Source of the DNA: a virus
Reading direction: 5' to 3' (one strand)
DNA length: 20,379 nucleotides
Virus record (IMG/VR): IMGVR_UViG_3300022907_001428
Span: 1 to 20,379 of that record
Part shown: piece by piece, positions 6,652 to 18,518 of the stretch
How positions within the stretch are numbered: the stretch's first letter is position 1
How the letters are laid out: each line of letters opens with the position of its first letter
Translations under genes and position numbers: made by a program
The notes under the pieces: model-generated
Told to the model about the DNA's origin: nothing
The model's database searches: none
The model's input: the letters and a program-made list of their open reading frames with translations, nothing else

Positions 6652-6682
6652 TTGACAAACACTTAATACCAGTGTATAAATA
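6652..6682 (+). promoter_or_regulatory. Promoter of the permuted tmRNA gene, with overlapping late-type box
   Basis: TTGACA (6652-6657), a 17-base spacer and TATAAA (6675-6680) form a strong sigma70-like promoter. The -10 box also reads TATAAATA (6675-6682), the exact T4 late promoter core, so one start site may serve host-type and late phage transcription. The predicted start is near 6687, where the acceptor piece of the tmRNA begins. Confidence 0.75.
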
Positions 6683-6686
6683 GTAT

Positions 6687-6749
6687 TGTAACGTTGAAGC
6701 AATTTGACGACTGAACTGGACCCGGGTGCGATTCCCGGCAGCTCCACCA
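6687..6749 (+). ncRNA. ssrA: tmRNA acceptor piece (3' part of a permuted ssrA)
   Basis: The end of this piece has the tmRNA T arm and acceptor end. The T stem CCGGG/CCCGG surrounds loop TGCGATT, and then CAGCTCC (6739-6745) is followed by ACCA (6746-6749) with the CCA encoded. CAGCTCC pairs with GGGGCTG at 6860-6866, 110 bases downstream, giving a seven-pair acceptor stem with one G-U pair. The order 3' piece, spacer, 5' piece is that of circularly permuted tmRNA genes of alphaproteobacteria and some cyanobacteria, whose product is two RNAs. The 5' boundary is estimated from the promoter. Confidence 0.87.
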
Positions 6750-6762
6750 AAAGGATACTACT

Positions 6763-6858
6763 GTGAGTAATACAACTTACTTAAAGTTACAGCGCATACT
6801 ACTGCCCATAGCAGGCATACTTATGCTTATTGGAACAGTTAGTTTAGTATTTTTTTGA
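6763..6858 (+). CDS. 31-codon membrane-peptide ORF in the tmRNA intervening sequence
   Basis: An open frame of 31 codons lies wholly between the two tmRNA pieces. AAAGGA sits seven bases before a GTG start, and the TGA stop ends one base before G1 of the coding piece (6860). The peptide has a short polar start (MSNTTYLKLQR), then a hydrophobic run (ILLPIAGILMLIGTVSLVFF) able to span a membrane. The good ribosome binding site and exact fit to the spacer suggest a real gene, but a chance ORF in a processed spacer cannot be excluded. Confidence 0.5.
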   Translation: MSNTTYLKLQRILLPIAGILMLIGTVSLVFF

Positions 6859-6859
6859 T

Positions 6860-7016
6860 GGGGCTGATCAGGATCGACAGGCAGGATAGAAGAGTGGAGT
6901 TACCGGGATGTAAGCGCCGTACCGCGAACAAACTTTATAATTGCAGAAGCAAATATAGCATTAGCAGCCTAAGGGCAGCTACGAGGTAGTTAGACCTTGT
7001 TACCAAACATAGCAGG
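6860..7016 (+). ncRNA. ssrA: tmRNA coding piece (5' part of a permuted ssrA, with tag reading frame)
   Basis: The piece begins GGGGCTGATCAGGATCGACA, close to the conserved tmRNA 5' end (acceptor strand and D-arm region). It carries a tag frame ending GCA TTA GCA GCC TAA (stop 6970-6972). The tag reads TNFIIAEANIALAA, possibly with an Arg or Ala before it; the resume codon is near 6925-6928 but not certain. The ALAA end is the classic ClpXP/ClpAP degron. The 3' boundary is set by the terminator hairpin and is approximate. tmRNA rescues stalled ribosomes with SmpB. The tag is unlike known alphaproteobacterial ones in its middle. Confidence 0.9.
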
Positions 7017-7042
7017 AAAGGCACCTTCGGGTGCTTTTCTTT
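7017..7042 (+). terminator. Terminator of the tmRNA transcript
   Basis: AAAGGCACC/GGTGCTTTT (one G-U pair) closes a TTCG tetraloop at 7026-7029 and runs into a T-rich stretch. It immediately follows the tmRNA coding piece. Confidence 0.85.
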
Positions 7043-7049
7043 TGACTTC

Positions 7050-7082
7050 TTTCTTTGGACACGGGGTATCTTTCTTTGGACA
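7050..7082 (+). repeat. Two direct copies of TTTCTTTGGACA
   Basis: TTTCTTTGGACA occurs at 7050-7061 and 7071-7082, 21 bases apart (two helical turns), in the spacer between the tmRNA terminator and the next promoter. Spacing on one face of the helix would suit a protein-binding site, but only two copies are seen. Confidence 0.5.
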
Positions 7083-8246: not shown

Positions 8247-8274
8247 AAAGAGACTCTTCGGAGTCTCTTTTTTT
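8247..8274 (+). terminator. Terminator after the beta-barrel gene
   Basis: The perfect 10-base stem AAAGAGACTC/GAGTCTCTTT closes a TTCG loop and is followed by a T run. A nearly identical terminator stands at 8960. Confidence 0.92.
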
Positions 8275-8306
8275 AATTGGTAAAAGCAATTATTGCTATA
8301 GAAAAA

Positions 8307-8959: not shown

Positions 8960-8987
8960 AAAGAGGCTCTTCGGAGTCTCTTTTTTT
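8960..8987 (+). terminator. Terminator after peroxiredoxin
   Basis: AAAGAGGCTC/GAGTCTCTTT with a TTCG loop and seven T residues. It is the same as the terminator at 8247 except for one base that makes a G-U pair. Confidence 0.9.
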
Positions 8988-8991
8988 ATGG

Positions 8992-13284: not shown

Positions 13285-14409
13285 ATGAGAATTGATCAAG
13301 ATATCAAACTAGACTACAAGGATGTACTAATCCGCCCTAAGCGAAGTACACTTAAAAGTCGTAGTGAAGTAAGCCTAGAACGTGGATTTACATTTCGTAA
13401 CTACGTTCCAGACTTTCCAGACAACATAAAAGACGAACACTATCGTGGCATTCCTATTATGGCTGCTAACATGGACGGTGTCGGCACTATGGAAATGGCC
13501 GACAAACTAGCAGAAGGTAATATCTTTACTTGTCTAGTTAAAACATATCCAGTTGAAAACCTAGTTGATTACTTTAATGCAGGTATCAAAGAGCGTACAG
13601 ATAATGTAGCAATGAGTATCGGCACTAGTGACTCAGACTTTAATAAACTTGTTCAAGTATATGAACAATGTGAAGGCAATCTAAAATACGTGTGCATGGA
13701 TATTGCAAACGGATATTCAGAGCACTTTGCAGCTCGAGTGCGTGATGTGCGCAAAGCATTACCACATATTGTAATCATTGCTGGTAACGTAGTAACAGGC
13801 GAAATGACGGAGGAACTTATACTTGCCGGAGCTGATATTGTTAAAGTTGGTATTGGACCTGGGAGTGTTTGCACTACTCGTATCCAAACTGGTGTTGGAT
13901 ACCCGCAGCTCTCCGCTGTTATCGAGTGCGCTGACGCTGCTCACGGTCTCGGTGGGCATATCATTGCTGATGGCGGCTGTACCTGCCCTGGTGACGTGGC
14001 TAAGGCTTTTGCTGCCGGCGCAGACTTTGTAATGCTTGGCGGTATGCTTGCCGGACACGATGAAGGTGGTGGCGAAGTTATTACCAAGTTCTACGAAACA
14101 AATGAAGTTGATAACGAAGGTTATCGAGTAAGAGAAATGAAACAGTTTGTACAGTTCTACGGTATGAGTAGTGACGCAGCAAACACAAAACATTTTGGCG
14201 GATTGAAAAACTATCGTTCGTCAGAAGGTCGTGAAGTACTTGTTCCTTACAGGGGCGAGGTAGCACGAACAGTACAAGACTTGCTCGGAGGCATCCGTTC
14301 AACTTGTACATACGCAGGCGCTATGAAGCTCAAGCAACTTAGCAAATGCACAACCTTTGTTCGTTGTACTCAGCAATTTAATGCTGTTTATGCGAATAAT
14401 AATAAATAA
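13285..14409 (+). CDS. guaC: GMP reductase
   Basis: A 374-residue TIM-barrel enzyme of the IMPDH/GMP reductase family, close to E. coli GuaC. The region [17 protein letters not shown] holds the catalytic Cys (C196). It is followed by [20 protein letters not shown], then DGGC-x4-GDVAKAF and [15 protein letters not shown], and later FYGMSSDAA and [12 protein letters not shown]. Those blocks are GuaC-specific, and no CBS pair is present as in IMPDH. It reduces GMP to IMP with NADPH, feeding purines back to the IMP branch point, which could balance dATP and dGTP supply in step with the phage Nrd. The middle (about 13820-14080) uses Ala GCT/GCC and other codons unlike the GCA-rich neighbours. Confidence 0.93.
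14402..14408 (+). promoter_or_regulatory. Late-promoter-like box ATAAATA before groES
   Basis: ATAAATA lies 12 bases before the GGAA of the leader hairpin. The same box sits at exactly the same distance before the hsp20 leader (16392). In T4 the start site lies about six bases after this box, so the leader hairpin would be at the 5' end of the RNA. Confidence 0.5.
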
Positions 14410-14410
14410 A

Positions 14411-14457
14411 ATCGGAATGCCAAATGGGTTCCAATTAATCTTGCTTAATTAAGGAGA
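14411..14457 (+). promoter_or_regulatory. ROSE-like RNA thermometer candidate in the groES leader
   Basis: Hairpin I pairs GGAA (14414-14417) with TTCC (14429-14432) and CC with GG around AAAT. Hairpin II pairs TCTTGCTT (14439-14446) with AAGGAGA (14451-14457) around AATT. All seven pairs form, including one U-G, with only G14443 bulged. The right arm is the groES ribosome binding site. A UUGCU strand with a bulged G facing the Shine-Dalgarno sequence is the hallmark of ROSE elements that switch on heat-shock genes on warming. A matching copy precedes hsp20. Confidence 0.7.
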
Positions 14458-14463
14458 AATAAC

Positions 14464-16381
<1,918 letters not shown>

Positions 16382-16391
16382 TTTATCATTG

Positions 16392-16398
16392 ATAAATA
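16392..16398 (+). promoter_or_regulatory. Late-promoter-like box ATAAATA before hsp20
   Basis: ATAAATA lies 12 bases before the GGAA of the leader, the same spacing as at groES. It also forms part of a short TTATC/GATAA palindrome just after the groEL stop. Confidence 0.5.
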
Positions 16399-16450
16399 AT
16401 TACGGAATGCCGAAAGGGTTCCGTAATTTAATCTTGCTTATTAAAGGAGA
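16398..16450 (+). promoter_or_regulatory. ROSE-like RNA thermometer candidate in the hsp20 leader
   Basis: Hairpin I pairs AATTACGGAA (16398-16407) with TTCCGTAATT (16419-16428), ten perfect pairs, and CC with GG around a GAAA loop. Hairpin II pairs TCTTGCTT (16432-16439) with AAGGAGA (16444-16450) around ATTA and bulges G16436. It hides the hsp20 ribosome binding site. The paired residues of hairpin II are identical to those of the groES leader, while both loops and the outer stem of hairpin I differ. This suits a conserved RNA structure and fits the known preference of ROSE elements for small heat-shock genes. Confidence 0.75.
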
Positions 16451-16456
16451 AAAAAA

Positions 16457-16930
16457 ATGACAAGACTTACAACTTTAGACTTACCTAACTTTCATAGAGC
16501 CACTGTTGGCTTTGATAGAATGTTTAATGAACTTGAAAGACAGTTTGCAAACAGTCCAAATGGAAACGGGTATCCCCCATACAATATTGCACAAATCAAC
16601 GACGACGAATACATGATTAGTATTGCTGTCGCTGGCTTTGGTATGGATAACCTTGATATTACAAAGGATGGAAAGATCCTGCGTATTGAAGGAACTGCTC
16701 CTAAGGGAGACGAAAATGTAAACTACCTACACAAAGGAATCGGCGGACGCAACTTCCGTAGAGAGTTTACACTTGCTGACTATGTGGAAGTCGCTGGCGC
16801 AACACTAGAACTAGGTATGCTTAACGTACACCTAAAGCGTGAAGTACCAGAAGCACTGCAACCTAAGAAAATCGCTATTAAAGATTACTCAGGTGCAGTA
16901 CACGAAGCAATTGAAACAGACAGCAAGTAA
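16457..16930 (+). CDS. Small heat shock protein Hsp20/IbpA-like
   Basis: A 157-residue alpha-crystallin family chaperone. The N-terminal HRATVGFDRMFNELE is IbpA-like. The alpha-crystallin domain covers about residues 40-135 (YPPYNIAQINDDEYMISIAV, GMDNLDITKDGKILRIEG, FRREFTLADYVEV, LELGMLNVHLKREVPE). The C-terminal IxI-type motif is in KKIAI. It holds unfolded proteins for refolding. Hsp20 is common in T4-like marine phages. Its leader carries the thermometer-like element, and a G/C-rich hairpin follows the gene. Confidence 0.95.
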   Translation: MTRLTTLDLPNFHRATVGFDRMFNELERQFANSPNGNGYPPYNIAQINDDEYMISIAVAGFGMDNLDITKDGKILRIEGTAPKGDENVNYLHKGIGGRNFRREFTLADYVEVAGATLELGMLNVHLKREVPEALQPKKIAIKDYSGAVHEAIETDSK

Positions 16931-16981: not shown

Positions 16982-17287
16982 ATGGCAACAGATACTGATG
17001 TAAAAATTGATGAAAAAATTAAAATTACAATCAAAGAACCATCTAACTATAATGTAATATTTTTAAATGACGATTCAACTCCTATGGAATGGGTAGTAGA
17101 ACTTTTAAAAACGTTATTCAAACATACTACTGCTAGTGCAGAAGCATTAACAATGGATATTCATAATGAAGGTTCTGCAGTTGTAGGAACTTATAAGTAT
17201 GAAATAGCAGAGCAGAAGGCAGCGGAAGCAACTACTGCAAGTCGCAATCACGGATTTCCACTGCAAGTAAAAATGGAAGAAGCATGA
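16982..17287 (+). CDS. clpS: ClpS, adaptor of the ClpAP protease
   Basis: A 101-residue protein of normal ClpS size. A flexible N-terminus is followed by YNVIFLNDDSTPMEWVVELL, then MDIHNEGSAVVGTYKYEIAE, QKAAEATTASRNHGFPL and a final EE. The N-degron pocket residues are kept: N29, D30 and H61, with the same 32-residue Asn-His spacing as in E. coli. ClpS hands proteins with Leu, Phe, Trp or Tyr at the N-terminus to ClpA, and in E. coli it also turns ClpAP away from ssrA-tagged proteins. The stop overlaps the heme oxygenase start (ATGA). It could redirect host proteolysis. Confidence 0.95.
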   Translation: MATDTDVKIDEKIKITIKEPSNYNVIFLNDDSTPMEWVVELLKTLFKHTTASAEALTMDIHNEGSAVVGTYKYEIAEQKAAEATTASRNHGFPLQVKMEEA

Positions 17288-17832
17288 GCAATTTAAAAGA
17301 ACTTACTTGGGAACATCATAAGAACGCTGAACGTCAAGCATTCGTAAAAGAGATGTTTGCAAAAGAACCACAGATTAGTAAAGAACGATATGCAACATAT
17401 TTGTTCAATCAACATCCTCAATACAACATGCTAGAAATGCTAGCAATGATGCATGGACTGTTTGACGGCATGCCCGAATTGCGTAGAGCTCCACGTATTC
17501 ATGAGGACTATCAAGAACTTTGGGATAAGGACAGTTTTGATCAACCTCCATTAATGCCTGTTGTAAAAGAATACATGGATCATTTAATGTCAATCAAAGA
17601 TGATGCAGACAAATTAATGGCACACGTATATGTAAGACACATGGGAGATCTAAGTGGTGGACAAATGATTGCTAAACGTGTGCCAGGCAGCGGCAAGTTT
17701 TATCAATTTGATAAAGATCACGACGAACTTAAAGAATTAGTACGTGCAAGGCTGAGCGATGATATGGCCGACGAAGCTAAAGTGTGTTTTGATTTTGCTA
17801 CAAAAATGTTTAAAGAGTTGGGCGGCGAATGA
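17284..17832 (+). CDS. Heme oxygenase
   Basis: A 182-residue all-helical protein of the heme oxygenase family, shorter than typical cyanobacterial forms of about 240. The proximal heme ligand is H12 in WEHHKNAERQAF, and the distal helix motif is RHMGDLSGGQMIAKRV (GDLSGGQ at 121-127). The Tyr/Phe-rich middle is also typical. It opens heme with oxygen and reducing power (ferredoxin) to biliverdin, CO and iron. The starts and stops overlap clpS before and a bilin reductase after (ATGA both times), so biliverdin is probably passed straight to that enzyme. The name ho1/hemO is not assigned, since the subtype is uncertain. Confidence 0.94.
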   Translation: MSNLKELTWEHHKNAERQAFVKEMFAKEPQISKERYATYLFNQHPQYNMLEMLAMMHGLFDGMPELRRAPRIHEDYQELWDKDSFDQPPLMPVVKEYMDHLMSIKDDADKLMAHVYVRHMGDLSGGQMIAKRVPGSGKFYQFDKDHDELKELVRARLSDDMADEAKVCFDFATKMFKELGGE

Positions 17833-18518
17833 GTGTTATATGGCAAAGACTAATTGAGTGTAAAGATGAGATTATACAAATCTTTAATGACAAAGCCGTT
17901 GAATTTGAAGAGCCCGGGCTTGCTCACTTTAATAATGATACTTGGGTCAATCGTGTGTGGCGTAATGATCATGTTAGGCGTGCTCATATCGATGTAGTAG
18001 ATGCTCGTGACAGCAAAGGCTTGTGGATGATGCATGTATGTGTATTTCCAACATTAACTAATCCTGGACCTATTTACGGGTTTGATGTAATTGCTGGCAG
18101 GACTAAAATGACAGGTGCGTTTCACGATCTCAGTGCAAGTGCTGACTTAGATAATCCTATGATTGCAGGATACAAGGAAGCTGTCGCAGACTTTATTCCA
18201 ACTAAGCAACGACAGCTACCTGAATGGGCAACAAACATCTTTACAGACAGGATGCTGGCCGCAGGTAATGTAAGCACAGAAGAAGAAGCAGTTGCTATTA
18301 TTGAACTAGCATTAGATAACCTTCGTGCATACTTTGATGAAATTGGTGAGTTTACTGGTACAGGCAATATAGATCTAGTTGCCGCAGCACAGAACTATTA
18401 CTGTCATAATCAGCAACAGAATCCGCACACTCCTCGAACAATGAAGAGTCTAGGTCTTGACGAAGCAGACGTTGATAAGTTCTGTACTGATATGTTGTTT
18501 CCTAAGATAAATACTTAA
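17829..18518 (+). CDS. Ferredoxin-dependent bilin reductase, PcyX-like
   Basis: A 229-residue FDBR family protein. MMHVCVFP carries H69 and PIYGFDVIAGR carries D86, with the same 17-residue spacing as His88 and Asp105 of PcyA. N198 in YYCHNQQQNPHTPRTM matches PcyA Asn219, and the C-terminal DMLFP is typical. The Glu76 of PcyA, needed for phycocyanobilin formation, aligns with D55 (HIDVVD), as expected for an enzyme making another bilin. Together with the heme oxygenase it should reduce biliverdin, probably to phycoerythrobilin, as reported for PcyX of uncultured oceanic phages. The PcyX subtype is inference; PebS or PcyA-like alternatives are less likely. No phycobiliprotein is encoded here. 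Confidence 0.87.
   Translation: MSVIWQRLIECKDEIIQIFNDKAVEFEEPGLAHFNNDTWVNRVWRNDHVRRAHIDVVDARDSKGLWMMHVCVFPTLTNPGPIYGFDVIAGRTKMTGAFHDLSASADLDNPMIAGYKEAVADFIPTKQRQLPEWATNIFTDRMLAAGNVSTEEEAVAIIELALDNLRAYFDEIGEFTGTGNIDLVAAAQNYYCHNQQQNPHTPRTMKSLGLDEADVDKFCTDMLFPKINT
18507..18513 (+). promoter_or_regulatory. Late-promoter-like box ATAAATA
   Basis: ATAAATA overlaps the end of the bilin reductase gene, 24 bases before the next ATG. It matches the boxes at 14402 and 16392. No sigma70-type promoter is seen here. Confidence 0.45.

Follow-up and report, generated by a model that had tools for sequence, protein, structure and literature searches.

Two-hairpin leaders resembling ROSE thermometers in front of phage chaperone genes

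Two related leaders in a phage chaperone gene cluster

The window, i.e. the whole stretch of DNA analysed here, is the record of a marine phage, 20,379 bases long, in which groES, groEL, hsp20 and clpS were identified as consecutive genes (Pfam). Both groES and hsp20 are preceded by a leader of about 60 nt, and the two copies are 81–82% identical. The relevant features of this region are as follows:

14402..14408, + strand: ATAAATA, a T4-like late-promoter-like motif just 5' of the groES leader (putative promoter)
14414..14432, + strand: hairpin I of the groES leader, GGAATGCC AAAT GGGTTCC, with a bulged G (fold; covariation in the family)
14439..14457, + strand: hairpin II of the groES leader, UCUUGCUU / AAGGAGA, with the ROSE signature UUGCU, a bulged G opposite the Shine-Dalgarno sequence (SD) and the loop AAUU (fold; ROSE_3, 33.7 bits; conservation)
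14464..14751, + strand: groES (Cpn10), 95 aa (Pfam PF00166)
14762..16381, + strand: groEL (Cpn60), 539 aa (Pfam PF00118)
16392..16398, + strand: ATAAATA, late-promoter-like, immediately 5' of the hsp20 leader (putative promoter)
16399..16427, + strand: hairpin I of the hsp20 leader, a long stem with a bulged G and a GAAA loop (fold; covariation in relatives)
16432..16450, + strand: hairpin II of the hsp20 leader, UCUUGCUU / AAGGAGA, with the loop AUUA (fold; ROSE_3, 35.8 bits; conservation)
16457..16930, + strand: hsp20 (small heat shock protein), 157 aa (Pfam PF00011)

Comparison of the groES leader with the virus record gave a sole other match, at 16392-16460 (81% identity, E 3e-14), and a repeat search recovered the two copies as families D8 and D12, with a spacing of 1990-1993. 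The initial annotation had described a repetition of the groES leader before hsp20, and this was borne out, including the shared two-hairpin layout. Direct reading of the sequence also confirmed that the arms of the SD hairpin (hairpin II) are identical in both leaders (TCTTGCTT / AAGGAGA), while the loops are AATT (14447-14450, groES leader) and ATTA (16440-16443, hsp20 leader); when folded, both leaders pair UCUUGCUU with AAGGAGA around a bulged G. Hairpin I retains GGAATGCC...GGGTTCC and one bulged G in both leaders, with a change of the loop from AAAT (groES) to GAAA (hsp20) and a longer stem in the hsp20 leader (12-13 pairs around the bulged G). These differences had been described before, except that the stem had been given as ten pairs, an undercount, since the fold yields 13.

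The fold of the hsp20 leader was more stable than expected (z -3.3; none of 200 shuffled sequences equalled it), whereas that of the groES leader was by itself unremarkable (z 0.09; 101 of 200 shuffles were as good). The structure of the leaders is not a product of chance, and its decisive support is the comparative evidence across relatives. A role of hairpin I as a terminator seems unlikely, its 3' side being followed, as read from the sequence, by AATTTAATC, with no T run. The NTAAATA motif occurs 13 times on the + strand and 7 times on the - strand of the window.

The window carries several further features. A permuted tmRNA gene of the two-piece type lies at 6657-7063 + (ARAGORN tmRNA*, tag AEANIALAA; Rfam tmRNA_permuted, 96.5 bits, cut-off 47). 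Two near-identical terminator-like hairpins (AAAGAGnCTCTTCGGAGTCTCTTTTTTTA, 97%) are placed 713 bases apart, at 8247-8275 and 8960-8988 +. A gene for a ClpS adaptor follows hsp20 (16982-17287 +), and clpS is also found near hsp20 in Sinorhizobium phage Phosso (L403, 2130-2429). Genes for a heme oxygenase and then a ferredoxin-dependent bilin reductase (17284-18518 +) constitute a bilin-making pair of the type reported from oceanic phages.

Occurrence of the leader in viral and bacterial genomes

Exact-pattern scans of the viral collection revealed at least 119 stretches for hairpin I and at least 119 for the anti-SD/SD pattern. A covariance model (R1) was built from 46 phage leaders, most of them chosen by the 3' motif and some taken from contigs also represented among the test loci. 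The initial annotation had proposed a search of this kind with a tally of the genes that follow, and its outcome was that the element is widespread and mostly precedes chaperone genes. A restriction of the similarity to this one contig, named there as the refuting result, was not what the search showed.

Among loci selected by their proteins, R1 matched at the hsp20 start codon in all 80 viral hsp20 loci; these loci gave 90 matches altogether, the other 10 being groES or groEL leaders. The 78 groEL loci gave 64 matches, followed by (i) groES (38), (ii) hsp20 (20), (iii) dnaK (3), (iv) groEL (1) and (v) short unmatched ORFs (2). In the 80 dnaK loci there were 115 matches, 58 at dnaK itself and 57 at the next gene, which was hsp20 in every case (57/57). 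Three phage loci (L334, L335, L351) carry three leaders each, before groES, dnaK and hsp20.

R1 was further run on 100 of the 117 loci found by the hairpin I pattern (L012-L128) and on 100 of the 114 found by the second pattern (L129-L242). The whole element was present in 63 of the 100 loci picked by hairpin I alone, and in 57 of these it stood before hsp20. In a tally of the groEL loci and both pattern sets, which includes some contigs repeatedly, 222 of 235 matches precede one of the four chaperone genes and 163 precede hsp20; the remaining 13 include truncated ORFs and two small orphan families. The orphan proteins behind the same type of leader are of about 81 aa (L142, 3364-3609 +, and L173) and about 63 aa (L154, L188). 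A Pfam search with those of L142 and L154 gave no match; the 81-aa ORF looks phasin-like, by eye only.

The motif U(U/C)GCU 5' of an AGGAG SD was found at 170 of 299 chaperone ORFs in the protein-selected loci (hsp20 85/111, dnaK 45/70, groES 31/54, groEL 9/64) and at 6 of 144 other ORFs, a difference for which the Fisher value is indicative only, the sequences being related. An ordinary SD context was rejected as an explanation of the motif, which the other SD genes of the same loci lack, apart from these 6 of 144.

As regards isolated phages, R1 matches (E<=0.01) at the start codon, or at another start a short way upstream, were detected in 17 of 24 hsp20-bearing records, namely Melnitz, S-SCSM1, S-SM1, Syn33, Phosso, AG-345-E15, P-SSM5, C48C1, S-N03, syn9, S-RIM44, S-RIM2, S-SKS1, P-RSM3, P-TIM68, ACG-2014f and S-T4 (in S-T4 the match lies 5' of the annotated hsp20 start). 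Matches were weak in HTVC008M (E 0.012) and HTVC115P (0.14), the motif of ACG-2014g was visible by eye and not called by R1, and the R1 search of the hsp20 loci found none in S-TIM54, S-CAM3 and PWH3a-P1. The whole genomes of Syn33, HTVC008M and Melnitz contain one match each (E<=0.1), at hsp20. The unverified record 'Campylobacter phage A11a' carries a ROSE_2 leader of the E. coli ibpA type (L407, 935-1007 +; 100.4 bits) and not R1, which probably reflects bacterial contamination.

R1 was found in 7 of 142 bacterial genomes of one class under strict filters, in 26 of 32 of one order and in 14 of 38 of another. The order with 26 positive genomes had 30 loci (24 before hsp20, 4 before dnaK, 2 without a resolved gene), and one of the 24 hsp20 loci looks phage-derived; the order with 14 had 15 loci (6 before dnaK, 6 before hsp20, 3 before neither). 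The alphaproteobacterial genomes with the leader before hsp20 and dnaK probably include SAR11 (the order with 26 of 32). The element is therefore common to phages and bacteria. A search of the same class with ROSE_3 under strict filters matched 1 of 142 genomes, with no score over the cut-off. A protein scan of genome contigs yielded only three loci, and two of these resemble phage contigs within MAGs. A phage-type hsp20 with the same leader occurs in L411 and L412 (MAG contigs labelled Pirellulales and Neomarinimicrobiota) and in L428 (genome G151), and all three are probably phage contigs binned with bacteria. A weak R1 match (E 0.0026) was also noted in one alphaproteobacterial genome (L424), 5' of an ORF that by eye resembles RpoH, the heat-shock sigma factor.

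Covariation and modelled opening of the Shine-Dalgarno hairpin

In the set of 46 leaders, 95.4% of the cells of hairpin I were paired and 6 of its 8 pairs had changed on both sides. Over all 18 pairs of the structure, changes on both sides amounted to 112 cells, compared with a mean of 41 for shuffled alignments and a maximum of 35 for slid ones. RNAalifold found both hairpins unaided, with four pairs of hairpin II. The 12-pair outer stem was evaluated in 13 hsp20 leaders close to that of the window (11 of them distinct), where 96.9% of the cells were paired (at most 40.5% when slid) and 8 pairs had changed on both sides in relatives. Of 33 hsp20 leaders with a tetraloop in hairpin I, 32 had GNRA (a loop of this form was absent from 20 more), and 9 of 13 cyanophage leaders had UUCG; such swaps point to selection on the RNA.

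Hairpin II has no covariation support of its own, because its sequence hardly varies. The core anti-SD pairs were all formed in 53 of 53 unique hsp20 leaders selected by protein, and in 31 of 33 groES and 15 of 15 dnaK leaders, the latter two sets having been found with the model. Cyanophage leaders carry UCGCU, the other permitted form of U(U/C)GCU.

Standard energy models did not predict that the SD of the window leaders is closed in the cold. With ViennaRNA, the mean probability of an unpaired SD dropped from 0.98 at 5 °C to 0.59 at 55 °C in the groES leader, and was about 1.0 up to 30 °C in the hsp20 leader. This is partly due to a competing AU hairpin of 6 pairs, present in both leaders; a competitor of at least 5 pairs was found in 19 of 53 hsp20, 9 of 33 groES and 1 of 15 dnaK leaders, so that the AU hairpin is not a trait of the family. 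For the 53 hsp20 leaders, the Turner and Langdon parameters left the SD more open than when the 5' part was shuffled, and the Andronescu parameters alone produced a clear opening on warming (0.44 at 5 °C, 0.72 at 37 °C). The model applied to the window leaders holds the E. coli-type ibpA ROSE element closed up to 55 °C, and is thus a poor judge either way. Models of this kind ignore the non-canonical pairs known in ROSE.

Proposed function and relation to known RNA thermometers

The best Rfam match of both window leaders was ROSE_3 (RF02523; cut-off 43), with 35.8 bits for the hsp20 leader and 33.7 bits for the groES leader (E 1.6e-6 and 5.6e-6, respectively, for 91 bases). ROSE matches with E<=0.1 in 58 kb of sequence from 20 fetched loci were confined to hsp20 leaders (ROSE_3 in 4 phage loci and ROSE_2 in L407); the leaders of L298, L194 and the isolate Melnitz gave ROSE_3 matches under the cut-off. 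No Rfam family reached its gathering score in 20 phage loci, and no ROSE family did so in 11 of 12 isolate loci, the twelfth having an E. coli-like ibpA leader. According to the accessible text of PMC11182007, the signature of ROSE is U(U/C)GCU in an imperfect pairing with the SD that includes a bulged G. The phage leaders contain this arrangement; as judged by folds, consensus structure and covariation, they also have the SD in the last of two to four hairpins, and they lie in the 5' untranslated region of a small heat shock gene (all 80 hsp20 loci).

We consider it likely that each window leader is a short RNA thermometer of the ROSE type, with two hairpins, in the 5' untranslated region of a phage chaperone gene. 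This reading is based on architecture, covariation, association with particular genes and similarity to ROSE_3; from these we infer the occlusion of the SD in the cell, its melting with heat, the start of transcription and the benefit to the phage. Hairpin I would serve as a stable scaffold and hairpin II would hold the SD AAGGAGA by means of UCUUGCUU around the bulged G; warming would melt hairpin II, so that ribosomes could initiate at groES(-groEL) and hsp20 and, in relatives, at dnaK as well. Phage late promoters appear to drive transcription of the chaperone genes, and we propose that heat-shock control could operate without a host heat-shock sigma factor because the late-promoter transcripts would carry a cis-encoded thermometer. 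In T4, transcription starts 6 nt past the late-promoter motif. A start 6 nt past ATAAATA would leave the outer stem of the hsp20 leader untranscribed; since that stem covaries, the leader may be read through from groESL or started earlier.

Alternatively, hairpin I could protect or process the mRNA, and UCUUGCUU...AAGGAG could merely be a strong conserved ribosome-binding region that does not sense temperature. Nearly all of the covariation sits in hairpin I, the energy models leave the SD open, and hairpin I may stabilise the ibpA mRNA (according to the part of PMC3669281 consulted). Yet the anti-SD UUGCU is invariant and not needed by a ribosome site, the motif is rare at other SD genes of the same loci, and it varies between U and C exactly as in ROSE; we regard this alternative as unlikely. 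The leader might instead bind a protein or a small molecule. One candidate is RegA, a translational repressor of phages, since RegA or a 'translation repressor' is annotated 5' of hsp20 in the fetched stretch of 8 of 24 isolates. The element, however, is also found at groES, groEL and dnaK and in bacterial genomes, and it is associated with chaperones, not with early genes, which makes such a role quite improbable. A bistable leader of opposite sign, in which the AU hairpin (UUAAU / AUUAA) leaves the SD accessible at low temperature and gives way to the SD hairpin on warming, would agree with the energy model of the window groES leader and with the 6-pair competitor of both window leaders, but with that competitor in so few members of the family we give it very little credence. 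That one leader was simply duplicated in this phage, locally and not long ago, is scarcely credible: the window copies are the most similar of 13 pairs compared, but the same element occurs in hundreds of matches in other viral loci, and in the 13 phages with two leaders (in L351 and L334 the second copy precedes dnaK, not hsp20) copies within one phage were no closer than copies from different phages, with a mean identity of 0.717 within and 0.705 between phages (permutation 0.11).

Judging from these comparisons, the leader of each gene belongs to a widespread family and has long been maintained in its own right. Hence, of the proposal in the initial annotation, a structured regulatory RNA common to the chaperone units of one phage, with differences that preserve structure, stands, while local duplication does not; the ROSE type had not been named, and the presence in well-known isolates had been missed.

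The thermometer reading can be extended to other phages. A large, previously unlabelled family of phage leaders resembling bacterial ROSE suggests that many phages have heat-shock control of their own. On balance we lean towards the view that a heat-shock regulon of hsp20, groES(L) and dnaK, each behind a ROSE-class thermometer of the alphaproteobacterial kind, is encoded by many tailed phages of the sea and of fresh water, among them model cyanophages and phages of Pelagibacter and Methylophilales. If so, chaperone supply during infection would track the temperature of the sea or lake without host sigma factors. Water temperature would then be linked, at the molecular level and in a testable way, to infection by abundant marine phages, and the hsp20 leaders of cultured cyanophages permit direct testing.

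In the open-access literature searched, with subscription papers mostly outside it, we found no report of ROSE elements in phages; the searched terms gave no mention of such a leader in the accessible text of a paper on Pelagibacter structured RNAs (PMC2704228) or of one on cyanophage sHSPs (PMC3827213). Another known RNA, freshwater-2 (RF02980), scored 34.9 bits with the hsp20 leader and 15.4 bits with the groES leader, both under its cut-off of 49.9; the hsp20 leader can be aligned with the freshwater-2 ribosome-binding region, AAAGGAGAAAA-AUG, whereas the hairpins of freshwater-2 do not fit.

The phage leaders share with ROSE_3 a hairpin I of the form GAUGCC...GGGUC with a bulged G, followed by an SD hairpin that contains U(U/C)GCU and again a bulged G, and then AUG. 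They differ in that they score under the curated cut-off, are A/U-richer, have a shorter and weaker hairpin II and, in phage genomes, precede groES, groEL and dnaK besides hsp20. In some dnaK leaders (L206, L182, L160 and others) a further hairpin separates hairpin I from that of the SD, and in this they resemble three-hairpin ROSE elements.

The short ROSE-like thermometers of Pseudomonas ibpA, as described in the available sections of PMC3669281, are proven; their hairpin I is stable, while hairpin II is short and melts. The phage leaders are like them in length (about 60 nt), in having two hairpins with the SD in a short hairpin II, and in U(U/C)GCU. In that same portion of the source, the Pseudomonas core has flanking G-C pairs on either side and its thermal response has been tested; above the phage core there are A-U pairs only. 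The weaker phage hairpin II, with no upper G-C clamp, could suit colder hosts, or else the signal could be something other than temperature. At P. stuartii oppF a ROSE-like hairpin is sufficient by itself, and ABC transporter genes were added in 2024 (both according to the part of PMC11342760 consulted). Three phage thermometers are named in the accessible text of PMC11182007, i.e. lambda cIII, SPbeta blyA (fourU) and a sigma70 fourU in a gut Caudoviricetes phage. These are single cases at other genes, with fourU or alternative folds and none of ROSE type or at a chaperone gene, whereas the leaders described here would, like them, act in cis as temperature elements of phage mRNAs.
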